This document shows, piece after piece, positions 16,594 through 48,428 of a DNA stretch of 64,000 bases. The notes beneath the pieces are model-generated. The model had not been told where the DNA came from and searched no databases. It saw nothing but the letters and a program-made list of their open reading frames with translations. Both the position numbers and the translations under genes were made by a program. The DNA comes from Dokdonella sp. (GTDB lineage: Bacteria > Pseudomonadota > Gammaproteobacteria > Xanthomonadales > Rhodanobacteraceae). Positions within the stretch are counted from its first letter, which is position 1. Every line of letters begins with the position of its first letter. The stretch is taken from NCBI GenBank assembly GCA_023228465.1, contig JALOBC010000003.1, forward strand, positions 62,001-126,000, read 5' to 3'.

Positions 16594-16727
16594 GCCTGCC
16601 GGGTGAGCATCTGGCCAGGTCAGAGTGCATTCCCAAGGCCCGCTGGCGCATGGCTGCGTGGCGGTGATTGCGCGGCGCCGGCGCGCCGCGCCGGCATGGA
16701 CCGGCAGACAACGGGGGTTCCGGCGCC

Positions 16728-17990
16728 GTGACGACGCACGCCGGGGCGAGCCCGCGGCTCGCCATCGTGGGTGGCGGCCCGGCCGGCCTGATGGCGGCCG
16801 AAACCGCCCGCGCAGCCGGTGTCGAGGTGGATCTCTACGATCGCATGGGCTCGGTCGGGCGCAAGTTCCTGATCGCCGGCAAGGGCGGCTTGAATCTCAC
16901 CCATGCCGATCCCTTCGGCACCTTCGTTTCACGCTATGGCACACGCGCCGGGGAAGTCGGCCGCTGGCTTGCGCGCCTGGATGCCGGGGCCCTGCGCGCA
17001 TGGGCGCGCGGCCTGGGCGTGGAGACCTTCGTCGGAACCTCCGGCCGCGTGTTCCCGAGCGACCTCAAGGCAGCACCGCTGCTGCGCGGCTGGCTGCGAC
17101 GCCTGCGTGCAAGCGGCGTGCGTTTCCACGTCGGCCATCGCTGGCTTGGCTGGGACGCGACCGGCGCACTGCGATTCGTCCACGATGGGCAGGAAAAACA
17201 CGTGCGCGCCGATGCGCTGGTGCTCGCCCTCGGCGGCGCCAGCTGGCCGGTACTTGGTTCCGATGGGCATTGGGCCCGGGTGCTGGCCGGGCATGGTGTC
17301 GCGCTTGCGCCGCTGCAACCGGCCAACTGCGGCTTCGACGTGGCCTGGAGCCCGCACTTCAGCGCGCGCCATGCCGGCGCGCCGATCAAGCCGGTGGTAC
17401 TCGAATGGCGTGGCGACGATGCGCACGCGATCCGCCGCCAGGGCGAGTTCGTCATCAGTACGCATGGTGTGGAGGGCAGCCTGATCTACGCGTTCAGCGC
17501 TGCGCTGCGTGAAGCGATCGCGCGCTCGGGAAGTGCCACGATCCACCTCGACCTGGCGCCCGGCCGCGACGCCACGCGCCTCGCGCGCGATCTGGCGCAG
17601 CCGCGCGGCAGCCGCAGCTTCAGCGAACACCTGCGCCGGCGTGCCGGCATCGACGGCGCCAAGGCCGGTCTGCTGTACGAGGTCCTGACCGGGGGCGACC
17701 GGCACAACGCCGAGCGCATCGCAGCCACCCTGAAGGCGCTGCCGCTGACCCTGCTGCGCCCGCGGCCGATCGACGAGGCGATCAGCAGCGCCGGCGGCGT
17801 GCGCTTCGAGGCCATCGACGCGGGCCTGATGCTGCGCGCGATGCCGGGCGTCTTCGTTGCCGGCGAGATGATCGACTGGGAAGCCCCCACCGGCGGCTAC
17901 CTGTTGACTGCGTGCTTCGCCAGCGGCCTGATCGCCGGCGAAGGCGCGGCGCGCTGGATCGGCTCGCACCAGGACAAGCGCGCCACCTGA
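16728..17990 (+). CDS. HI0933/YhiN-family FAD-dependent oxidoreductase
   Basis: A flavoprotein of about 420 residues. The N-terminal dinucleotide-binding motif LAIVGGGPAGLMAAE is followed by GRKFLIAGKGGLNLT, the strongest signature of the HI0933/YhiN family. The C-terminus has the expected second FAD contact region, VFVAGEMIDWEAPTGGYL. The reaction performed by this family is not established. The GTG at 16728 is placed about ten residues before the Rossmann motif; a TTG at 16668 is the alternative. It is separated from the cluster downstream by about 310 bases. Confidence 0.85.
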   Translation: MTTHAGASPRLAIVGGGPAGLMAAETARAAGVEVDLYDRMGSVGRKFLIAGKGGLNLTHADPFGTFVSRYGTRAGEVGRWLARLDAGALRAWARGLGVETFVGTSGRVFPSDLKAAPLLRGWLRRLRASGVRFHVGHRWLGWDATGALRFVHDGQEKHVRADALVLALGGASWPVLGSDGHWARVLAGHGVALAPLQPANCGFDVAWSPHFSARHAGAPIKPVVLEWRGDDAHAIRRQGEFVISTHGVEGSLIYAFSAALREAIARSGSATIHLDLAPGRDATRLARDLAQPRGSRSFSEHLRRRAGIDGAKAGLLYEVLTGGDRHNAERIAATLKALPLTLLRPRPIDEAISSAGGVRFEAIDAGLMLRAMPGVFVAGEMIDWEAPTGGYLLTACFASGLIAGEGAARWIGSHQDKRAT

Positions 17991-18301: not shown

Positions 18302-19543
18302 ATGATCCAGCTCAGCTACAGCACCTTCGGACTAACCAACCTGCCCTTCCTCGATGCCATCGATGCCGTGGCGAAGGCGGGTTACGCGGGCGTGGAGCTG
18401 TCCTTCCATCGCGAGCAGTTCAATCCATTCGACCTGACCCATGCCGACCTGGATGCGCTGCGGGCACGACTCGATCACGCCGGCATTGCCCCGGCCTGCG
18501 TGGCGACCGCCTCGCACTTCTTTACGCCCTCGCGGCCGCACGAACCCTCGCTCATGACGCTGGACCTGGCCGGCCGCAAGCGTCGCATCGACCTGGTCAA
18601 GCGCGGCATCCGCGTGGCACGCCACCTGGGCGTGGACCTGGTGACCTTCGGCAGCGGCTTCCGCCGCGCGGATCACGTGCGCAATCCGCACATCGAGCCA
18701 CGCGAGGTGCTGATCGATTCGATCCGCGAGTGCCTCACCGAAATCGGCGATGGCGAGGACATCACGCTGCTGATCGAGCCCGAGCCCGGCATGGTCATCG
18801 AAACCCTGGACGAGGGGCTCGAACTGATCGATGCGGTGGGCGACCCGCGCTTCGCCCTGCACATCGACCTCTGTCACGCCTACTGCTCGGACGTGGACTA
18901 TCTTGCGGCGCTCGGCCGGGCCGCAGGCCAGGCGCGCTACCTGCACATCTCCGACGCGCGCGCGGGCTGGAACCTCAAGGTGGTCGAGGATGATCCGGCC
19001 AACGCCCTCGACCTGACGTTTTCGAGCTGGCTGGTGTATTTCCCCGATACGGCGGATTTCCTGCTGGTCGATGCGCACCATTCCACGTATTTCTGCGAAC
19101 GCGCGCCGGACGCGACACGTCGGCGGCGCATCGAAGCGCTGTTGCAGCAGGCCGGCATCACGGGCGAGGTCGGCCTGGTCGATTACGCCACGCTTTACGC
19201 AGGCAGCTCCCCATTGGACGACGAGATCTTCACCTGGATGATCTCGCTGCCCGACCTGCCCTTCGACGTCCTCGAGCGCGCGCGGCCGATCGTCGCCCAC
19301 CTGCGCGGCGTGCGCGGCCCGGCGCTGGTCGAGCGCATGGTCGCCAACACGCTCACCGGCATCGTGCATTTCCACGATATTCCCGGCGCGGGCACGCTCG
19401 ATCTGGCGGCCAGCTTCAGGGCGCTCAACGACCACGGCTTCGATGGCTACGGTTCGGTCGAGCTCTACCACCACGTGGAATCCTGGCAGGACGCGCTGGA
19501 TTCGAGCTATCGGCATCTTGCCGCCATCGCGCAGCCGGGATGA
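18302..19543 (+). CDS. Xylose isomerase-like TIM-barrel protein with internal insertion (EboE-like context)
   Basis: A protein of about 413 residues of the AP endonuclease 2/sugar phosphate isomerase superfamily. It shows the expected order of metal-binding strands: LIEPEPGM (Glu), LHIDLCHAYC (Asp, His), YLHISDARAG (His), then HFHDIPGAG and GSVELYHH (His, Glu). Between the YLHISD strand and the HFHDIPG strand about 110 extra residues are inserted (nucleotides about 19005-19355), making it longer than simple members of about 280 residues. The reaction is unknown; sugar or cyclitol epimerisation is the natural guess. The stop is four bases before the LuxS-like start. The ATG at 18302 is used, and a GTG at 18293 is also possible. 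Confidence 0.75.
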   Translation: MIQLSYSTFGLTNLPFLDAIDAVAKAGYAGVELSFHREQFNPFDLTHADLDALRARLDHAGIAPACVATASHFFTPSRPHEPSLMTLDLAGRKRRIDLVKRGIRVARHLGVDLVTFGSGFRRADHVRNPHIEPREVLIDSIRECLTEIGDGEDITLLIEPEPGMVIETLDEGLELIDAVGDPRFALHIDLCHAYCSDVDYLAALGRAAGQARYLHISDARAGWNLKVVEDDPANALDLTFSSWLVYFPDTADFLLVDAHHSTYFCERAPDATRRRRIEALLQQAGITGEVGLVDYATLYAGSSPLDDEIFTWMISLPDLPFDVLERARPIVAHLRGVRGPALVERMVANTLTGIVHFHDIPGAGTLDLAASFRALNDHGFDGYGSVELYHHVESWQDALDSSYRHLAAIAQPG

Positions 19544-19547
19544 TGCC

Positions 19548-20030
19548 GTGATCGATCTCGAGGCCCTGGGCTGGGCCAGCCACACGGTCGGCGAATTGGA
19601 CCACCGGCGCCTCAAGGCGCCCAGCGTGAAGCTGCGCGGCGTACACACCGGGCCGGGCGGCGATGTCGTCTATGCCATCGACCTGCGCCTGCGCCGGCCG
19701 AATGCCGAGGCGTACCTGACCGCCAGGCAAGCACACTCGCTGGAGCACTTCCTGCTGGAAGGCTTCCAGCGCCTGCTGCCCGAGCATTTCATCGGCGTCG
19801 GCGTGATGGGCTGCCAGACCGGCTTCTACCTGACCCTGCTCAACGAGGGGCGGCGCGCGGTGATCGAAGCCGCCGCGCAGGCCATCCTGCGTGGGGTCCT
19901 GGCAGCCGAGGCGGTGCCCTACGCGCACATCGAGCAGTGCGGCCGCTGGCAGCACCACGACCTGCGTGGCGCCCAGGCGGTCGCCCGCGAGGTGCTGGCG
20001 CAGCGTGCCGCCTGGGCACAGGTCACATGA
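19548..20030 (+). CDS. LuxS-family protein (S-ribosylhomocysteine lyase homologue)
   Basis: A 160-residue protein, the normal length for LuxS, which converts S-ribosylhomocysteine to homocysteine and DPD, the AI-2 precursor. All the main functional residues are present: the HxxEH metal motif (H63, E66, H67), the catalytic cysteine in MGC (C89), and the late metal-binding cysteine in EQCGRW (C131). The N-terminal DHRRLKAPSVKL and IDLRL segments also match the family. The residue after the catalytic cysteine is Gln where LuxS proteins normally have Arg (MGCRTGFY). The GTG at 19548 is the only start in frame near the family N-terminus. It overlaps the cyclase gene by ATGA. Because this genome also encodes ahcY at 46998, a function other than SAH recycling is likely, so the luxS symbol is withheld. 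Confidence 0.85.
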   Translation: MIDLEALGWASHTVGELDHRRLKAPSVKLRGVHTGPGGDVVYAIDLRLRRPNAEAYLTARQAHSLEHFLLEGFQRLLPEHFIGVGVMGCQTGFYLTLLNEGRRAVIEAAAQAILRGVLAAEAVPYAHIEQCGRWQHHDLRGAQAVAREVLAQRAAWAQVT

Positions 20031-21178
20031 ACGGCGCCCGCCAGGCCCGCTGGCAGGTGCGCACCGCGCGCCCGATTGCCTATGACCTCGTCAACGTGGC
20101 CGATGTGTTCGATCCGAGCTGCGCTGCGCTCGCCTCGCTGGGCCGCACCCAGGGTGGTCGGCGCTTCGTGGTCGTCGATGAGGCGGTGCACGAACGCCAT
20201 GGCGAGCGCATGCGCGCGTGGTTCGCGCAGCAGCAGATCGACGCGCGCATCGTGCGCATCCCGGGCGGCGAAGCGGCCAAGACGGTGGCAACCTGGCAGG
20301 GGCTGCTGCGCGCACTCGACCGCTTCCCGATCCACCGCCGCGATGAGCCGATCATCGCCATCGGCGGCGGGGTGCTGACCGACGTGGTCGCCTTCGTCGC
20401 CTCCAGCTACCGCCGCGGTGTGCCGCACATCAAGGTGCCGACCACCCTGATGGGTTACGTGGATGCCGCGGTCGGCGTCAAATGCGGGATCAACTTCAAC
20501 GGGTACAAGAACCGGCTCGGCAGCTTCGAGCCGCCGGCGTGCGTGCTGCTGGATCGGCGCTTCCTGACCACCCTGCCGCTCCGGCACCTGCACAATGGCC
20601 TGTGCGAGATCATCAAGCTGGCGGTGATCAAGGACGCGCACCTGTTCGATCTGCTGGAACGGTCCGGCGCGGCCAGCCTGGCCTGCGCCTTCCAGGACGG
20701 GCCGGGCGGCGAGATCCTCGACCGTGCCATCGGCGGCATGCTGGAAGAGCTCGCGCCCAACCTGCACGAGGACGAACTCGCGCGCAAGGTCGATTTCGGC
20801 CACACCTTCAGCTATGGCCTGGAAACCCGCTTCGAAGAGCGCCTGCTGCACGGCGAGGCGGTATTGCTGGACATCCTGGTTTCCTGCGCCATCGCGCACG
20901 CGCGGCACCTGCTCGGGGCTGCCGACGCCAGGCGCATCCTGGCCCTGATCGAGCATCTGGGCATCACGCCAGTGACCGGACTGCTGGACACCGAACTCAT
21001 GTGGCAGTCCCTGCGCGACCGCATCGAGCACCGCAACGGCGCCCAGCACGTGCCGCTGCCGACGGGGCTGGGTGGATGCTGCTTCGCCAACGACATCACG
21101 CGCCGCGAAATCGCGGCGGCGATCGACACCCTGACCGAATGGAGCCTGCCGAAACATGCACGCATCGCCGAATGTTGA
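20027..21178 (+). CDS. Sugar phosphate cyclase (dehydroquinate synthase-like, EEVS/EboD type)
   Basis: A 383-residue member of the 3-dehydroquinate synthase superfamily, which cyclises C7 sugar phosphates with NAD and a metal ion. It has the NAD loop IAIGGGVLTDVVAF, YRRGVPHIKVPTTLMGYVDA, a metal Glu in HNGLCEIIKLAVIKD, and the metal His motifs DFGHTFSYGLE and LHGEAV. The KNRLGSFEPP segment and the Leu-Thr-Asp after GGGV resemble 2-epi-5-epi-valiolone synthase and EboD-type cyclases rather than AroB, where GKNMIGAF and GDLAGF are usual. Sedoheptulose 7-phosphate is the expected substrate by analogy. It overlaps its neighbours by 4 and 23 bases, indicating translational coupling. Confidence 0.85.
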   Translation: MNGARQARWQVRTARPIAYDLVNVADVFDPSCAALASLGRTQGGRRFVVVDEAVHERHGERMRAWFAQQQIDARIVRIPGGEAAKTVATWQGLLRALDRFPIHRRDEPIIAIGGGVLTDVVAFVASSYRRGVPHIKVPTTLMGYVDAAVGVKCGINFNGYKNRLGSFEPPACVLLDRRFLTTLPLRHLHNGLCEIIKLAVIKDAHLFDLLERSGAASLACAFQDGPGGEILDRAIGGMLEELAPNLHEDELARKVDFGHTFSYGLETRFEERLLHGEAVLLDILVSCAIAHARHLLGAADARRILALIEHLGITPVTGLLDTELMWQSLRDRIEHRNGAQHVPLPTGLGGCCFANDITRREIAAAIDTLTEWSLPKHARIAEC

Positions 21179-21866
21179 TCCCGCCGAAATCGCCCACTTC
21201 AACCGCATGGCGGACATGTGGTGGGATCCGCACGGAAAAATGGGCCAGCTGCACGCCATCAACGACCTGCGCCTCGCCTTCATCACCGATCGCATCGGCG
21301 TGGCGGCACCGCGCGTGGTGGATGTCGGCTGCGGCGGTGGCATCCTGGCCGAGGCGCTGGCCCGGCACGGTGCGTCGGTGACCGGCATCGATCTTTCCGA
21401 CCTGTCGCTCAAGATCGCACGCCAGCATGCCGAGCGCGGCGGGCTGGACATCGATTACCGCTATCTCGACGTGGAAACGCTGGCCGCCAGCGAAGCGCAC
21501 GCCTTCGACGCCGTCACCTGCATGGAAATGCTCGAACACGTGCCGCACCCGGAGCGCGTCATCGCAGCCTGCGCGCGGCTGCTGAAGCCGGGCGGCATGG
21601 CCTTCTTCTCCACCATCAACCGCACGTTCAAGGCCCTCGCCTTCGCCATCGTCGCAGGCGAGTACATTCTCGGCCTGCTGCCGCGCGGCACGCACAGCTA
21701 CGCCAAGCTCATCAAGCCCGTGGAAATGCGCCGCTGGGCCGGCGCCGCGGGCCTCGAGTTCAGGGCCGTGGCGAGCCTCATGTACAACCCGCTTACGCGG
21801 CGCTTCCGCGTGGCGCCGGATCGCGAGGACATCAATTACATGGCCTGCTTCGCCACCAGGAGCTGA
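21156..21866 (+). CDS. ubiG: UbiG-type SAM-dependent O-methyltransferase
   Basis: A 236-residue class I methyltransferase very close to UbiG, which performs both O-methylations of ubiquinone biosynthesis. Signatures include NVDPAEIAHFNRMADMWWDP at the N-terminus, the SAM motif VVDVGCGGGILAE, TCMEMLEHVPHPE, and the UbiG-specific FFSTINR, EYILGLLPRGTH and YNPLTRRF segments. The ATG at 21156 lies inside the end of the cyclase gene and follows GGAG at 21141. It may be the housekeeping ubiquinone enzyme placed in an unusual operon, or a copy that methylates the cluster product. The sequence cannot decide between them. Confidence 0.88.
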   Translation: MHASPNVDPAEIAHFNRMADMWWDPHGKMGQLHAINDLRLAFITDRIGVAAPRVVDVGCGGGILAEALARHGASVTGIDLSDLSLKIARQHAERGGLDIDYRYLDVETLAASEAHAFDAVTCMEMLEHVPHPERVIAACARLLKPGGMAFFSTINRTFKALAFAIVAGEYILGLLPRGTHSYAKLIKPVEMRRWAGAAGLEFRAVASLMYNPLTRRFRVAPDREDINYMACFATRS

Positions 21867-21870
21867 GACC

Positions 21871-22764
21871 ATGCAGCGATTTCTGGCCCTCTCGCGCTCC
21901 ACCCACGGCATGCTCGACATCGCCATGCCCGGGTTCGTCGCGCTGCTCTGGCTGGGCCGGTTCCCGACCTGGCCGGTGCTGCTGATCTGCCTGGGCACGG
22001 CCCTCGCCGGCTACACCGCGATCTATGCGCTCAACGACCTGATCGGCGTCAAGGATGACAAGCAGAAGGTGGCGGGCGGACTCAAGTCGGGCTACGCGGT
22101 CGAAGCCTCGGCGCTGCGCTATCCGCTGGCGCAGAACCTCATCAGCATGACTGGCGGCTGGCTGTGGTTCGGATTCTGGTTTGCCCTGGCGGTCGTCGGC
22201 ATCTGGCTGCTCAATCCGCTGATTCTCGTGATCCTGTTCGCCGCGGCGGTGCTGGAAGTGGCCTACGTGAAGCTGCTCAAGGTGACCTGGTGGCGCACCA
22301 TGGTCAGCGCGCTGGTGAAGTCGGCCGGGCCGCTGGCGGCGGTGTATGCCGTGGTGCCCAATCCGGCCTGGCAGGGCCTGCTGCTGATGCTGGCCTGGCT
22401 GATGCCCTGGGAGATCGCCGGCCAGAACATCCCGGCCGACTGGAACGACATCGACGAAGACCGGCGCATCGGCGCGCGCACGATCCCGCTGGTGTTCGGC
22501 CCGCGCATGGCCGGCATGCTGGTGCTGGCGGGCCTCGTTGCCACCGTGTTCCTCGGCCTGGCCCTGCCGCGGCTCTCGCCGCTGATGCTCGGCTGGCCCT
22601 TCCAGCTCGCCATGCTCGTTGCCGGTGCCGGCCTGCTGGTGTGGCCGGCCCTGCGCCTGGCGCGCAGCCTGGGGGGACGCGACGCGGCGCGCCTGTTCGA
22701 CCGCGCCAGCCTCTATCCACTGGCCCTGCTGGCGATCATCACGCTGGCCGTGCTGGTGCCCTGA
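21871..22764 (+). CDS. UbiA-family prenyltransferase (EboC-like)
   Basis: A 297-residue polytopic membrane protein of the UbiA superfamily with about eight to nine hydrophobic segments. The first aspartate-rich motif is NDLIGVKDD and the second is DWNDIDEDRRIGART. These bind magnesium-diphosphate in enzymes that transfer prenyl groups to aromatic, sugar or cyclitol-like acceptors. It does not look like the 4-hydroxybenzoate enzyme UbiA itself, and is closer in motif spacing to the wider chlorophyll synthase/EboC type. A ribosome binding site, GGAG, lies eight bases before the ATG, four bases after ubiG. The neighbouring sugar phosphate cyclase suggests a cyclitol acceptor. Confidence 0.8.
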   Translation: MQRFLALSRSTHGMLDIAMPGFVALLWLGRFPTWPVLLICLGTALAGYTAIYALNDLIGVKDDKQKVAGGLKSGYAVEASALRYPLAQNLISMTGGWLWFGFWFALAVVGIWLLNPLILVILFAAAVLEVAYVKLLKVTWWRTMVSALVKSAGPLAAVYAVVPNPAWQGLLLMLAWLMPWEIAGQNIPADWNDIDEDRRIGARTIPLVFGPRMAGMLVLAGLVATVFLGLALPRLSPLMLGWPFQLAMLVAGAGLLVWPALRLARSLGGRDAARLFDRASLYPLALLAIITLAVLVP

Positions 22765-23324: not shown

Positions 23325-23993
23325 CTACGCGGTGGCGTCGGGCTGGTTTTCCGGGCGCGCCCGTTCGAAGGCGGGCAAGCCCAGGCAGTGCGCGTCGATG
23401 CGCTCGATGGTGGGATAGGCGCCCAGATCCATGCCGAAGCGACGCGCGTTGTAGACTTGCGGAATCAGGCAGGCATCGGCCAGGGTGGGTTGATCGCCGT
23501 GGCAGCAGGTGCCGCTGGAGCTGTCCGCCACGAGGATTTCCTCGAAGGCGCGAAAGCCCGCGTCCATCCAGTGCCGCATCCAGGCAGTGCGCGCGTCCTC
23601 GTCGGCGTCGAACGTCCGTTCCAGGTGCTGCATCACCCGCAGGTTGTTGAGCGGATGGATGTCGCAAGCCACCAGCAGGGCCAGCGAACGCACATGGGCG
23701 CGATCGCGCGCGCCAACCGGCAGCAGCGCCAGCGATTCGGGACGCGATTCCTCCAGGTACTCGATGATCGCCAGCGACTGGCGGATGATGCGTTGGCCAT
23801 CCACCAGCGTGGGTACCACCTGCTGTGGATTGACCGCGCAGTACGCCGAAGCATGTTGTTCGCCGCCGGCGCGAACCAGGTGGACCGGCTGCTGTGCATA
23901 GGCCAGGCCCTTGAGATTGAGGGCAATGCGCACCCGGTAGCAGGCACTGGAGCGCCAGTAGTCGTACAGGAGCAGCCGGGATGCTGATGCCAT
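23325..23993 (-). CDS. maiA: Maleylacetoacetate isomerase
   Basis: A 222-residue zeta-class glutathione transferase that isomerises 4-maleylacetoacetate to fumarylacetoacetate. The N-terminal thioredoxin-like domain has the catalytic YWRSSACYRVRIALNLKG segment and NPQQVVPTLVDG. The C-terminal helical domain carries the zeta-class features CDIHPLNNLRV and DQPTLADACLIPQVYNARR. It starts three bases after the hydrolase gene that acts next in the pathway, and it is the last gene of the homogentisate block. Confidence 0.93.
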   Translation of the reverse strand: MASASRLLLYDYWRSSACYRVRIALNLKGLAYAQQPVHLVRAGGEQHASAYCAVNPQQVVPTLVDGQRIIRQSLAIIEYLEESRPESLALLPVGARDRAHVRSLALLVACDIHPLNNLRVMQHLERTFDADEDARTAWMRHWMDAGFRAFEEILVADSSSGTCCHGDQPTLADACLIPQVYNARRFGMDLGAYPTIERIDAHCLGLPAFERARPENQPDATA

Positions 23994-23996
23994 GGT

Positions 23997-24983
23997 TCAG
24001 GCTCCGTACTTGGTCACCACCTGCTCGATGGCGCCGAACAGGCTCGCGCCTGCCGCGTCGGTGATCTCGATGCGCACGGTATCACCAAACCTGAGGAAGG
24101 GCGTGGTCGGCTTGCCGTCACGCAGGGTTTCCACGGTACGCTGTTCAGCCAGGCACGAGGCACCGCGCGAGGTGTCCTGGTTGGCGATCGTGCCCGAGCC
24201 GACCAAGGTGCCGGCCGTCAATGGCCGCGTCCTTGCCGCATGGGCGACGAGCTGGGCAAAGCTGAACTGCATGTCCACGCCGCACTCGGCTTCGCCGAAC
24301 CACTGGCCGTTGATCCACGTGCGCATCGGCAGGTGCAGCTTTTCACCCTGCCATGCCGCACCGAGTTCGTCGGGCGTCACGAGCACCGGCGACAGCGCCG
24401 AGCGCGGCTTGGACTGCAGGAAACCGAAGCCCTTGGCCAATTCGCCGGGGATCAGGCCGCGCAGCGACACATCGTTGACCAGGCCGACGAGCTGGATGTG
24501 CTGCGCCGCCGCTTCCGGCCCGACACCCATCGGTACGTCGTCGGTGACCACCACGACCTCGGCCTCCAGGTCGATGCCATAGTCCTCGCTCGCCACGACG
24601 ATCGGGTCGCGCGGGCCGAGGAATCCGGCGCTGGTCGCCTGGTACATCAGCGGGTCGGTGTAGAAGGTCTCCGGCACTTCGGCACCACGCGCGCGGCGCA
24701 CGCGCTCCACGTGCGGCAGATAGGCCGAACCATCGACGAATTCGTAGGCGCGCGGCAGCGGCGCTGCCAGTCTGTTCACCTCGAGCGCGAAACTGTCATC
24801 GACACCGGCGCCGTTCAGCGCCTCGGAAAGTGCGTTCAGGCGCGGCGCGGCCTGCGCCCAGTGGTCCAGCGCATCCTGCAGGGTGGCAGCGATGGTGGTT
24901 GCGCGCACGGCGCGGCTGAGGTCGCGGCTGACGACGATGAGCGTGCCATCACGGCCGCCCTCCTTGAGCGATGCGAGTTTCAT
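23997..24983 (-). CDS. Fumarylacetoacetate hydrolase family protein
   Basis: A 328-residue FAH-family enzyme expected to cleave fumarylacetoacetate to fumarate and acetoacetate, the last step of tyrosine breakdown. Core features are an acidic metal site with YGIDLEAEVVVVTDDVP, a GLVNDVSLRGLIP segment, and GTLVGSGTIANQDTSRGASC near the C-terminus. The length is that of the shorter bacterial type rather than the 420-residue animal enzyme. Its place between hmgA and maiA makes the assignment strong even though the family is broad. Confidence 0.9.
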   Translation of the reverse strand: MKLASLKEGGRDGTLIVVSRDLSRAVRATTIAATLQDALDHWAQAAPRLNALSEALNGAGVDDSFALEVNRLAAPLPRAYEFVDGSAYLPHVERVRRARGAEVPETFYTDPLMYQATSAGFLGPRDPIVVASEDYGIDLEAEVVVVTDDVPMGVGPEAAAQHIQLVGLVNDVSLRGLIPGELAKGFGFLQSKPRSALSPVLVTPDELGAAWQGEKLHLPMRTWINGQWFGEAECGVDMQFSFAQLVAHAARTRPLTAGTLVGSGTIANQDTSRGASCLAEQRTVETLRDGKPTTPFLRFGDTVRIEITDAAGASLFGAIEQVVTKYGA

Positions 24984-25088
24984 GGCGAGTCCTTGGCGGC
25001 AATCGTTGCGGCAGCGCGACCTGCGCGCTGCGTCCAGGTGGCCGCCAGTGTAACGGGGCGGCGCTCGTCTTGGGTTCGGCGCAGCCGG

Positions 25089-26387
25089 TCAGGGCTGATG
25101 GAAGTGCTTCTTCAGCCCCGCCCAGCAGGCCTGGTAGTCGCGCTGGCGATGCGCCGCTTCCAGCGCCTGCAGGGTCGGGCGGATCACCGCGCGCGTCTCG
25201 AACATGATGGCCATCGTGTCGCTGACCACATCGGGCCGGGACAGGTCGGCGGCCGAGGCCTTCTCGAAGGTCGCCGCGTCCGGGCCGTGGCCGGTCATCG
25301 AATTGTGCAGCGAGGCGCCACCCGGAAGGAAGCCTTCGGCCTTGGCGTCATAGATGCCATGCACCAGGCCCATGAACTCGCTGGCGATGTTGCGGTGGAA
25401 CCAGGGCGGGCGGAAGGTGTCCTGGGCCACCAGCCAGCGCGGCGGGAAGATGGCGAAATCCACGTTGCTGGTGCCGGGCGTGTCACTGGGCGAGTGCAGC
25501 ACGAGGAAGATGGAAGGATCGGGATGGTCGTAGCTGATCGAGCCGATGGTGTTGAAGCGGCGCAGGTCGTATTTGCAGGGCGCGTAGTTGCCATGCCAGC
25601 CCACCACGTCGCACGGCGAGTGGCCGATGTCGGCGCGCCACAGGTGGCCCTGGAACTTGGTCACCAGTTCGAAATCGCCTTCGACATCCTCGAAGGCAGC
25701 CTGCGGAAAGAGGAAGTCGCGCGGATTGGCCAGACCATTGCTGCCGATGGGGCCGAGATCCGGCAGCTTGAACATGGCGCCGAAGTTCTCGCACACATAG
25801 CCGCGCGCCGCGCCGTCGGGCAGCGCGATGCGAAAGCGGATGCCGCGCGGTATGAGGGCGATCTCCTGTGGCTCGATGTCGATCACGCCGAACTCGGTCT
25901 CGATGTGCAGGCGACCCTGCTGCGGGGCAATCAGCAGTTCACCGTCGGCATCGCAGAACCAGCGCCCCTGCATGTCGCGGTTGGCGGCGTACAGGTGCAC
26001 GCCCATGCCGACCTGCGCTTGCGCCGAACCGTTGCCGGCCATGGTGTAGAGGCCTTCGAGGAAGTCTGCGGACGTGTTCGGCAGCGGCAGCGGATCCCAG
26101 CGCAACTGCTCGGGTGTGACCGCGCCGCTGCCAAAATCGTTATGGAAGCGTGGCTGCGTGAAGGGCGTGAAGTGGCCGTGCATCGCCGCTGGGCGGATGC
26201 GGTACAGCCAGCTGCGCCGGTTGGCGTGGCGCGGTGCGGTGAAGGCCGTGCCCGTCATCTGCTCGGCATACAGGCCATGCGCCACGCGCTGGGGCGAATT
26301 GCGGCCGACCGGCAGGGTGCCGTCCAGCGCTTCGGCGGCGAACTCGTTGCCGAAGCCGGATTGATAACCAGTGCTCGTCATCGACAT
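25089..26387 (-). CDS. hmgA: Homogentisate 1,2-dioxygenase
   Basis: A 432-residue non-haem iron dioxygenase that opens the ring of homogentisate to 4-maleylacetoacetate. The N-terminus [19 protein letters not shown] is diagnostic. The iron-binding region is seen in the C-terminal half: [20 protein letters not shown], then [18 protein letters not shown] and the late [13 protein letters not shown]. The length equals the family norm. It lies 110 bases after hpd and 105 bases before the hydrolase gene; no strong terminator is seen in either gap, so the four genes probably form one transcription unit. Confidence 0.96.
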
Positions 26388-26497
26388 GGGACAACCTCGT
26401 TGGCAGGAAGGTCAGCCGGCGCAAGCGTGCCCGCGGGCACGCCGATGCGCTGGCTTCTGAACATGCTTCTTGCGGGGCGCCGGCCGGGTCGCGCGGG

Positions 26498-27583
26498 TTA
26501 CAGCACGCCGCGCTTCATCTGGTCGCGCTCGATGGACTCGAACAGCGCCTGGAAGTTGCCCTCGCCGAATCCTTCGTTGCCCTTGCGCTGGATGATCTCG
26601 AAGAAGATCGGACCGAACGCGTTCTGGGTGAAGATCTGCAGCAGCAGGCGCTGCTTGGTTTCCAGGTCGGCGTCGATGAGGATCCTGTTCTTCGCCAGGC
26701 GCGGCACGTCCTCGCCGTGGTTGGGGATGCGCGCGTCGATCACCTCGAAATAGGTGTCGGGCGTGTCGAGGAACTCGATGCCCGCCGCGCGCATCGACTC
26801 CACCGTTTCATAGATGTCGTCGGTGAACAGTGCGATGTGCTGGATGCCCTCGCCCTTGTAGGCGTCCAGGTATTCGTTGATCTGCGACTTCGGGTCCGAC
26901 GACTCATTGAGCGGGATGCGCACGATGCCATCCGGCGCCGTCATGGCCTTGGACACCAGCCCGGTCTTGGCACCCTTGATGTCGAAATAGCGGATTTCGC
27001 GGAAGTTGAACAGCTTCTCGTAGTAGTCCGACCACTTCTGCATGTTGCCCAGGTACAGGTTGTGGGTCAGGTGGTCGATGAAGGTCAGGCCAAAGCCCCT
27101 GGGATCCTGCTCGGCGCCCTCGATCGGCACGTAGTCGGCATACAGGTCGCTGCGATTGCGGTCTACCAGGTACAGCATGCAGTCACCGATGCCCTTGATG
27201 ACCGGCGCATCGACTGCCCGGGTATCGGCCTTGGCGGTCACTTCCTCGCCGCCGTTGGCGAGCACCGCCTTGAGCACCTCGGGCACGGGTTTCCTGAAGC
27301 CGATGGCGAAGCCGCAGGCGCTCGGGCCGTGCGCACGGGCGAAGTCGGCCGCAAACGAGTCAGGTTCCTCGTTGACCAGGAAATTCACTCCACCCTGCCG
27401 ATACAGCGTGATGGCGCGCGACTTGTGGCGCATCGTTGCCGTGAAGCCCATGCGGCGCAGGTAGTCGTGCATGAATTCGCCCTGCCCCGTCGGGGCGGCA
27501 AACTCGACGAACTCGAAGGCGTCGATGCCCATCGGATTGTCGAACGTGGTGACCTGCATGCCAGGATCCGGTTGCGCGTTCAT
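26498..27583 (-). CDS. hpd: 4-hydroxyphenylpyruvate dioxygenase
   Basis: A 361-residue Fe(II) dioxygenase that turns 4-hydroxyphenylpyruvate into homogentisate. Two vicinal-oxygen-chelate repeats are present; the C-terminal half shows the iron histidines in FIDHLTHNLY and GIQHIALFTDD, and the final glutamate in FFEIIQRKGN. The ATG at 27583 is chosen because a near-perfect GGAGGAAGG stands just before it; the ATG at 27613 has none. It is the first gene of the homogentisate block and is read from a promoter at 27665-27693 that contains a palindrome. Confidence 0.95.
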   Translation of the reverse strand: MNAQPDPGMQVTTFDNPMGIDAFEFVEFAAPTGQGEFMHDYLRRMGFTATMRHKSRAITLYRQGGVNFLVNEEPDSFAADFARAHGPSACGFAIGFRKPVPEVLKAVLANGGEEVTAKADTRAVDAPVIKGIGDCMLYLVDRNRSDLYADYVPIEGAEQDPRGFGLTFIDHLTHNLYLGNMQKWSDYYEKLFNFREIRYFDIKGAKTGLVSKAMTAPDGIVRIPLNESSDPKSQINEYLDAYKGEGIQHIALFTDDIYETVESMRAAGIEFLDTPDTYFEVIDARIPNHGEDVPRLAKNRILIDADLETKQRLLLQIFTQNAFGPIFFEIIQRKGNEGFGEGNFQALFESIERDQMKRGVL

Positions 27584-27664
27584 GCCTTCCTCCAACGAAT
27601 TGAGCGGCGACACGAACGGTCGCCTTGCTGACGGGTGCGGCCATGGACTGCCGCCCAGACAGCC

Positions 27665-46997: not shown

Positions 46998-48428
46998 ATG
47001 AACGCGCAACCCAAGACCTTTTCGACCGCCGGCGACTACAAGATCGCCGATATCAGCCTCGCCGACTGGGGCCGCAAGGAAATCGACATCGCCGAGCACG
47101 AGATGCCCGGCCTGATGTCCATCCGCCGCAAGTACGCGCCCGGCAAGCCACTCGCCGGCGTGCGCGTGACCGGCTCGCTGCACATGACCATCCAGACCGC
47201 GGTGCTGATCGAGACCCTGAAGGATCTCGGCGCCGACGTGCGCTGGGCCTCGTGCAACATCTTCTCCACCCAGGACCACGCCGCTGCCGCCATTGCCGAC
47301 ACTGGCACGCCGGTGTTCGCCTGGAAGGGCGAAACGCTGGAGGAATACTGGGACTGCACGCTGGCCGCGCTGTCCTTTCCCGGCGGCCAGGGCCCGCAAC
47401 TGGTCGTCGACGACGGCGGCGACGTCACCTTGCTCATCCACAAGGGCTACGAGCTGGAAAACGGCTCGGACTGGGTGGGCACACCGTCCGGCAATCACGA
47501 GGAACAGGTCATCAAGAACCTGCTCAAGCGCGTGCATGCCGAACGCCCGGGCTTCTGGCACGCCGTGGTCAGTGAATGGAAGGGCGTATCCGAAGAGACC
47601 ACCACCGGCGTCCACCGACTCTATCAATTGGCCGAAGCCGGCAAGCTGCTGGTGCCGGCGATCAACGTCAACGATTCGGTGACGAAATCCAAGTTCGACA
47701 ACCTCTACGGCTGCCGCGAATCGCTGGCCGATGGCCTCAAGCGCGCCATGGACGTGATGCTCGCCGGCAAGGTTGCCGTGGTGTGCGGCTATGGCGACGT
47801 CGGCAAGGGCTCGGCACATTCCCTGCGCGCCTACGGCGCGCGCGTGGTGGTGACGGAGATCGACCCCATCAATGCGCTGCAGGCGGCGATGGAAGGATTC
47901 GAAGTCAATACCGTCGAATCCACGCTCGGTCGTGGCGACATCTACGTCACCACCACCGGCAACAAGGACGTGCTGACGCTGGCCCACATGCAGGCCATGA
48001 AGGATCAGGCCATCGTCTGCAACATCGGCCACTTCGACAACGAAATCCAGGTCGATGCGCTGCACGCCAGCGGTGCCACGCACACCAACATCAAGCCACA
48101 GGTGGACAAGTTCACGTTCGCCAACGGCAACAGCATCTTCCTGCTCGCCGAAGGCCGCCTGGTGAACCTCGGCTGCGCCACCGGCCACCCAAGCTTCGTC
48201 ATGAGCAATTCCTTCTCCAACCAGACCCTGGCGCAGATGGATCTGTGGGCGCACAAGGACAGTTACGAGGCAAAGGTCTACATCCTGCCCAAGAAGCTGG
48301 ATGAGGAAGTCGCGCGTCTGCACCTGGAAAAGATCGGCGTGAAGCTCACCCGTCTCACCGCCGAGCAGGCCGCCTACCTGGGCGTACCGGTGGATGGCCC
48401 ATACAAGCCGGAGCATTACCGCTACTGA
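46998..48428 (+). CDS. ahcY: Adenosylhomocysteinase
   Basis: A 476-residue NAD-dependent hydrolase that splits SAH, the inhibitor left by all methyltransferases, into adenosine and homocysteine. It shows [15 protein letters not shown], the cysteine-containing [16 protein letters not shown], the NAD motif [16 protein letters not shown], and the C-terminal dimer tail with the lysine-tyrosine end KPEHYRY. Length and features are those of the proteobacterial enzyme with the 40-residue insert. It is controlled by the SAH riboswitch. Its presence makes the Pfs/LuxS route dispensable for SAH recycling. Confidence 0.97.

Follow-up and report, generated by a model that had tools for sequence, protein, structure and literature searches.

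A 64,000-nucleotide stretch of a Dokdonella sp. genome (contig JALOBC010000003.1, forward-strand positions 62,001-126,000; GCA_023228465.1), hereafter the window, carries an operon coding for a TIM-barrel protein, a LuxS-family protein, a sugar phosphate cyclase, a UbiG-family O-methyltransferase and a UbiA-superfamily prenyltransferase. Judging from the genes, which suggest both the chemistry and the product, these five proteins would provide a self-contained route from sedoheptulose 7-phosphate (S7P) to a prenylated and O-methylated quinol, most likely with the ring of ubiquinone, a reading to which we give a probability of about one half. The route as proposed would need neither O2 nor chorismate nor 4-hydroxybenzoate. 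It is more tentatively that we suggest its wider consequence, namely a third complete route to ubiquinone, in which five enzymes work from S7P and a polyprenyl diphosphate, and which would have passed by horizontal transfer between Proteobacteria and Chloroflexota and taken the place of the classical pathway in some species.

Conservation of the operon

The original prediction described five genes on one strand with spacings of +4, -4, -23 and +4 bases, and the coordinates, when re-read, are exactly so (Table 1). Its family labels also hold, with Pfam assigning the products in order to the xylose isomerase-like TIM barrels, LuxS, the N- and C-terminal domains of 3-dehydroquinate (DHQ) synthase, the methyltransferases and UbiA; among the NCBIfam models the UbiG methyltransferase alone passes any listed cut-off and the other four proteins fall below. 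Among 61 genomes (that of the window and 60 relatives) an operon-type LuxS is present in four, of which three share a genus and the fourth comes from a different genus in the same family, and when the window is compared with stretches of 12-20 kb around the copies of the other three relatives the operon is the only matching DNA. When 84,980 genomes were scanned once with the four LuxS proteins in alignment, starting from two short peptide patterns, 40 loci were recovered, including the records of these three relatives, and gene order and strand are identical in all 40. All five genes are visible in 36, the other four (L034, L040, L064 and L066; L numbers denote loci and G numbers genomes) stopping inside the operon at a contig end. 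With start codons chosen by script to fit the proteins of the window, and L064 omitted because no start could be assigned to its cyclase gene, the cyclase and methyltransferase genes overlap in all 37 loci counted (by exactly 23 bases in 22) and the LuxS and cyclase genes in 34 of 38 (by exactly 4 bases in 31). The hosts are Xanthomonadales-type Gammaproteobacteria, the gamma proteobacterium HdN1, Betaproteobacteria (Alcaligenaceae, Comamonas, Castellaniella and similar) and Anaerolineae of the Chloroflexota.

Searches with a profile of the UbiA-type protein covered 251 Chloroflexota genomes, of which 10 (3 already known) have the operon and one more gave a divergent match, and 369 genomes of the window's class, of which 4 have the operon, a count that includes the window's own operon and L085, which is apparently the same as L061. 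Across the genomes searched, other genes of the operon accompany the UbiA-like gene, with two divergent cases left open by contig ends. In one of these, L083 (76-3334, plus strand, at the contig start), from a small gammaproteobacterial genome of 1.5 Mb that is 67% complete (G423), LuxS, cyclase, methyltransferase and UbiA genes follow one another and no TIM-barrel gene was seen. In the other, L082 (6304-8852, minus strand; Chloroflexota genome G164), a polyprenyl synthase gene lies between those for a UbiG-like methyltransferase and a UbiA-like prenyltransferase; the contig ends beside the methyltransferase gene and no LuxS or cyclase gene was seen. This cluster may represent either a sister pathway or what remains of a divergent operon. 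Chance grouping, which the original prediction had equated with relatives that keep the UbiG and UbiA-like genes and never have the LuxS-like and cyclase genes alongside, is not the pattern found: the search that it proposed, for conserved neighborhoods of this LuxS subfamily with the cyclase, gave the same order at 40 of 40 loci. This conservation supports the prediction that the five genes act as one functional unit.

Families and active sites of the five proteins

The best solved relative of the cyclase is ValA (4p53, 322 bits), followed by 5tpr (225 bits), which is deposited as a 3-dehydroquinate synthase and which we take to be a desmethyl-4-deoxygadusol synthase (DDGS); AroB proteins score at most 139 bits. 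We built a tree from 23 of the 39 near-complete operon cyclases and that of L083, three rows having long branches, with two ebo clusters as references. The 24 operon cyclases form one clade (100/98) within the S7P-cyclase side of the tree (100/99), together with EEVS and DDGS, while AroB forms a group of its own (99/98) and EboD falls on the AroB side, 100/99 apart from the S7P cyclases. Each of the four carriers tested has a second, higher-scoring DHQ synthase (AroB) elsewhere in its genome, and six non-carriers have one. The tree and these separate AroBs rule out an AroB duplicate as the origin of the cyclase, which is thus not the sole AroB, grouping firmly with AroB, that would have spoken for a chance association. 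The position of the cyclase among the S7P cyclases supports the start from a C7 sugar phosphate that was originally proposed.

The LuxS-type proteins of the operon were compared with ordinary LuxS in an alignment and tree of 49 operon proteins (without the interrupted G803 copy and the second G686 copy) and 38 ordinary ones (28 loci, 6 plasmid loci and 4 PDB chains; 28 of the 38 proteobacterial). The two sets are split with 100/99 support in this tree of 87 rows, 86 of them distinct, the bootstrap of which had not fully settled. His11, Arg39, His54, Glu57, His58, Cys84 and Cys126 (Bacillus subtilis numbering) are invariant in all 49 operon proteins and in all ordinary LuxS. Asp78, present in 38 of 38 ordinary LuxS, is found in none of the 49, its place being taken by Ser (39), Gly (8) or Cys (2); Pro81 is replaced in 47 of the 49, and a Tyr at position 125 occurs in all 49 and in none of the ordinary 38. 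The divergent LuxS of L083 likewise lacks Asp78 and retains the PMGC motif. The metal and catalytic roles that we assign to the conserved residues are in part presumed and in part follow PMC2656534 and PMC3907816. The former names Asp78, Glu57 and Arg65 as residues by which LuxS binds its substrate, and in the latter the carbonyl migration is described as using Cys84 as the base. Owing to a one-residue insertion, Arg65 does not fall at the alignment column that simple counting would give. The operon protein is therefore predicted, from these conserved and altered residues, to be a carbonyl-migrating beta-eliminase rather than an S-ribosylhomocysteine lyase. Among plasmids, 29 records of the collection searched match LuxS, none of them at least 60% identical to the LuxS of the window.

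A predicted model of the TIM-barrel protein (mean predicted local distance difference test score 81, from 16 sequences) is nearest to UlaE and the D-tagatose 3-epimerases, with rhamnose isomerase and 2-hydroxy-3-keto-glucal hydratase as further relatives; its E159, D189, H215 and E387, which we presume to be metal ligands, are invariant in 39 of 39 sequences. UbiG O-methylates prenylated catechols and quinols. In the UbiA-type protein both Asp-rich motifs (N55/D56/D63 and D190/D193/D197) are invariant in 37 of 37 sequences. It reaches 22.6 bits against a cut-off of 275 with the 4-hydroxybenzoate polyprenyltransferase model TIGR01474, and a search of solved structures gave no match to it at E 0.1.

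A proposed route to the ubiquinone ring

These assignments suggest a scheme for the synthesis of the quinol. The cyclase would convert S7P into a C7 ketone of the 2-epi-5-epi-valiolone (EEV) type, with oxygen on C1-C4, a hydroxyl and a CH2OH group on C5 and a CH2 at C6. Lying beta to the C1 ketone, the C5 hydroxyl could then be removed by the TIM-barrel protein, unless the latter catalyzes an epimerization that prepares the removal. The LuxS-type enzyme would next move the carbonyl round the ring through metal-bound enediolates and eliminate the C7 hydroxyl to leave a ring methyl; true LuxS likewise ends by eliminating the group on a terminal CH2, the CH2-S of S-ribosylhomocysteine becoming the CH3 of 4,5-dihydroxy-2,3-pentanedione. 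The ring would aromatize to 2,3,4,5-tetrahydroxytoluene, the single free ring carbon of which would be prenylated by the UbiA-type enzyme, and the UbiG-type enzyme would finally O-methylate the two middle hydroxyls.

The arithmetic of this scheme is simple. EEV is 2,3,4,5-tetrahydroxy-5-(hydroxymethyl)cyclohexanone, C7H12O6, and the loss of two waters gives C7H8O4. Of the 15 ways of removing two oxygens from EEV, exactly one, the loss of the C5 and C7 hydroxyls, yields the ubiquinone nucleus, taken here as four oxygens in a row, flanked by the methyl on one side and by a free carbon on the other. Neither an oxidation nor a hydroxylation, decarboxylation or C-methylation enters into the scheme, and genes for such reactions are missing from the operon. 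We also count the polyprenyl synthase gene of L082 in support of the scheme. An undescribed pathway to a lipid or quinone-like cofactor, as originally suggested, is supported, and we found no account of these five genes in the open-licence full-text literature beyond a table in PMC8756737.

Other quinone genes in the carriers

In three carriers the other UbiA and UbiG genes seem absent or decayed, which is most simply understood if the product can replace ubiquinone. Among 10 proteobacterial carriers the operon copy is the only UbiG over the model cut-off in G002, G012 and HdN1 (G066, a single complete contig). The PF01040 matches of G002 comprise the operon copy, heme O synthase and a HAD fusion and nothing more, and those of HdN1 comprise, besides the operon copy, a HAD fusion, a PRK05951 protein (Table 1) and a 23-bit match that was left unclassified; a 4-hydroxybenzoate-type UbiA was not found in either genome. 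G012 has a UbiA relic in addition to genes such as heme O synthase and a HAD fusion. For UbiE, the methyltransferase matches of all three genomes include weak ones only. In a tblastn search at E 1e-5 of 101 stretches of G012 (1.96 Mb, about 59% of the genome), Escherichia coli UbiB, J, D, C, I, H, X, F, T, U and V had no match, UbiE had one weak match, and UbiA retrieved the relic and heme O synthase. Run over 41 other loci (0.71 Mb in all), the same queries found one UbiB and one UbiI/F-type gene, and can therefore work in such genomes. Deletion of ubiA or ubiG in E. coli is described as abolishing ubiquinone with and without O2 (PMC6747719), and a 2024 survey of quinones in Pseudomonadota gives 70 species without a detected quinone pathway, mostly symbionts with reduced genomes (PMC11707229).

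Several observations weigh against a ubiquinone product. Two UbiG copies are present in 7 of the 10 proteobacterial carriers (G000, G033, G062, G064, G069, G070 and G441), including the genome of the window (G000:C30:16639-17292), so that the operon is not a general replacement. The case for UbiA and UbiG loss rests on three genomes, namely two drafts of one genus (G012 being 90% complete) and HdN1. As to controls in the G012 sample, TatC and a DEAD-box protein were seen, MiaB was not and PurF gave a 29% partial match; with two of four controls not properly found, the absences in this sample are only suggestive. In the Chloroflexota carriers, which are generally menaquinone bacteria, the operon's UbiG is the only one in 6 of 6 genomes searched. 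Furthermore, 36 of 39 operon cyclases have Tyr at position 263, as against Pro in both aligned S7P cyclases (4p53 and 5tpr), a replacement that makes the product of the cyclase unsure.

Some of these observations would fit another prenylated and methylated benzenoid, such as a benzoquinol of hydroxymethyl or demethoxy type, an antioxidant or an accessory quinone, which would be made by the same first steps with a different pattern of elimination. Retained UbiG and UbiA genes would be expected with an extra product of this kind: of the seven carriers with a second UbiG, two (G000 and G033) show an ordinary UbiA that passes the cut-off and G064 has one by alignment, the other four not having been classified. 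The Tyr of the cyclase and the presence of the operon in Chloroflexota, whose carriers are not known as ubiquinone makers, point in the same direction. Against such a benzenoid stands the absence or decay of UbiA and UbiG in the three carriers, and we consider it quite possible, though less likely than the ubiquinone ring.

Further alternatives

The original prediction had favored a prenylated and methylated cyclitol, and a non-aromatic product of this kind, or a gadusol-like lipid, is in keeping with the relatives of the cyclase, which make cyclitols and precursors of gadusol (ValA; PMC4426668). One DDGS-type gene was, moreover, found adjoining an O-methyltransferase. However, the operon has no reductase, kinase or aminotransferase, the chemistry of LuxS and the TIM barrel favors eliminations and epimerizations, and a protein that matches the UbiG model would be expected to act on prenylated catechols or quinols. 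Prenylation, O-methylation and the C7 sugar phosphate start of that proposal thus stand, whereas the cyclitol is improbable and less likely than a prenylated aromatic quinol because the operon has a full member of the UbiG family and because other UbiA and UbiG genes are lost in some carriers.

It is also conceivable that the LuxS-type protein works as an ordinary S-ribosylhomocysteine lyase and recycles the S-adenosylhomocysteine (SAH) released by the methyltransferase of the same operon, as all catalytic and metal residues are retained. Such a lyase would depend on SAH nucleosidase. Over the cut-off of the SAH nucleosidase model TIGR01704, the one nucleosidase family searched, 4 of 20 carriers have a match and 16 have none; the four, and nine more with a weak match, speak for a lyase role. 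At E 0.001 some match appears in 13 of the 20, mostly weak and in G069 consisting of two sub-threshold pieces in one frame, and there is no match at all in the genome of the window or in HdN1. Adenosylhomocysteinase is present in 19 of the 20 carriers, and is encoded in the window itself. No supply of S-ribosylhomocysteine is evident in the sequences of most hosts, and this, together with the missing Asp78 and the separate clade, makes a lyase role very improbable.

A variant of the ebo/edb pathway, to which the original prediction had likened the operon and with which it has three broad superfamilies in common (cyclase, UbiA and TIM barrel), is the least probable of all and is rejected on sequence searches and the cyclase tree: phmmer and profile comparisons of the TIM barrel with EboE (Azospirillum, Deinococcus) and of the UbiA-type protein with EboC (Azospirillum) gave nothing up to E 100, the NCBI EboC model, which was in the library searched, did not match the latter, and EboD lies in another part of the tree. 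No gene is conserved beside the operon over the 40 loci, and eboA, eboB and eboF were not seen among the few neighbors classified, no genome-wide search having been made.

Genomic surroundings and denitrification

No gene conserved beside the operon was found across the 40 loci, and flanking families that recur at several of them are common mainly to near kin. In the window a TIGR03862-family flavoprotein gene, which is not kept beside the operon in other genomes, lies upstream, and genes for tyrosine/homogentisate breakdown lie downstream, among them an open reading frame labeled FAH-like by eye, with no model match.

Some surroundings suggest a link to denitrification. G094, a Chloroflexota genome, has nirS no more than 2 kb away from the operon (G094:C74:18889-20061 and 21928 onward). 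For Chloroflexi SURF MAG 42, five genes under the same five names appear next to nirS in Table A1 of PMC8756737, and it is in that table that "LuxS", "EEVS" and "UbiG" each make their single appearance in the text of the paper. At L059 the operon is flanked by norCB, an fnr-type regulator and a molybdate transporter (labels by eye). Full-length NirS occurs in 12 of 42 carriers as against 1 of 38 non-carriers (p 0.002 by Fisher's test, uncorrected for kinship), and NirK over the cut-off in 21 of 42 and 19 of 38. L093 and L094 each encode a protein of 660-670 residues that has an N-terminus with no Pfam family, a NirK-like part and a cytochrome c. Frames of 659-764 residues with NirK scores of 174-208 bits were found in 14 of 42 carriers and 0 of 38 non-carriers, the latter being mostly of one family; the non-carrier G085 has NirK at 173 bits in a frame of 301 residues. 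As 33 of the 38 non-carriers belong to one family, we treat this link as a lead. An O2-independent ubiquinone would suit denitrifying hosts, which is context and not proof.

Table 1. Location of the operon genes and of other genes discussed in the text (positions are those of the window unless a locus is named; aa, amino acids)
Feature	Location	Strand	Basis
TIM barrel, metal-dependent ketose epimerase/dehydratase-like, 413 aa	18302-19543	+	PF01261
LuxS-family enzyme of separate clade, 160 aa, GTG start	19548-20030	+	Pfam LuxS
S7P cyclase-type enzyme of a separate clade next to EEVS, 383 aa	20027-21178	+	DHQ synthase N and C Pfam, tree
UbiG-family O-methyltransferase, 236 aa	21156-21866	+	TIGR01983, 258 bits, cut-off 103
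UbiA-superfamily prenyltransferase, not of the 4-hydroxybenzoate family, 297 aa	21871-22764	+	PF01040 over cut-off
Adenosylhomocysteinase, the host's SAH recycling enzyme	46998-48428	+	
TIGR03862-family flavoprotein	16668-17990	+	
Maleylacetoacetate isomerase, homogentisate 1,2-dioxygenase, 4-hydroxyphenylpyruvate dioxygenase and FAH-like frame	23325-27613	-	
PRK05951-type prenyltransferase of HdN1, no stated function	L141:672-1640	+	407 bits, cut-off 239
UbiA relic of G012 (contig C16), 324 aa, both Asp motifs gone	L147:640-1614	-	113 bits, cut-off 275
Protein with membrane-like N-terminus, multicopper/NirK-like part and C-terminal cytochrome c	L093:6534-8522	-	Pfam
Same type of protein	L094:7748-9760	+	

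Comparison with known pathways

If the proposed route is correct, a redox-neutral path from a sugar of the pentose pathway would be a new way to a central electron carrier. It might account for the ubiquinone of some anaerobic or denitrifying bacteria, and it would place ubiquinone in the Chloroflexota. The LuxS fold would gain a second, non-signaling function, and the presence of luxS need not imply autoinducer-2.

Ordinary LuxS, or S-ribosylhomocysteine lyase, shares with the operon protein its fold family, the HxxEH motif, the catalytic Cys and Glu, His11 and Arg39, and differs from it in clade, in Asp78 and in the nucleosidase that 16 of 20 operon hosts lack at the cut-off used. In the pathways that start from EEVS and DDGS neither a prenylation step nor a LuxS protein is known, and their later enzymes differ from those of the operon. 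What they have in common with it is an S7P cyclase, as described for EEVS (ValA; gadusol, PMC4426668) and for DDGS (mycosporines), and, in the gadusol and mycosporine routes, a methyltransferase beside that cyclase. The ebo cluster, for which an isoprenoid-cyclitol product was proposed, resembles the operon in having a cyclase of the same superfamily and UbiA-superfamily and xylose isomerase-like proteins; as described in PMC5133447 it consists of six genes, none of them LuxS or UbiG. Both known ubiquinone routes of E. coli, the O2-dependent one and the O2-independent one that uses UbiTUV, are described as starting at 4-hydroxybenzoate and sharing UbiA, UbiD/X, UbiE and UbiG (PMC6747719). The proposed route would have UbiA-type prenylation, UbiG-type O-methylation and the final ring in common with them, and would differ in that its ring derives from S7P, with the methyl and the four oxygens already in place.

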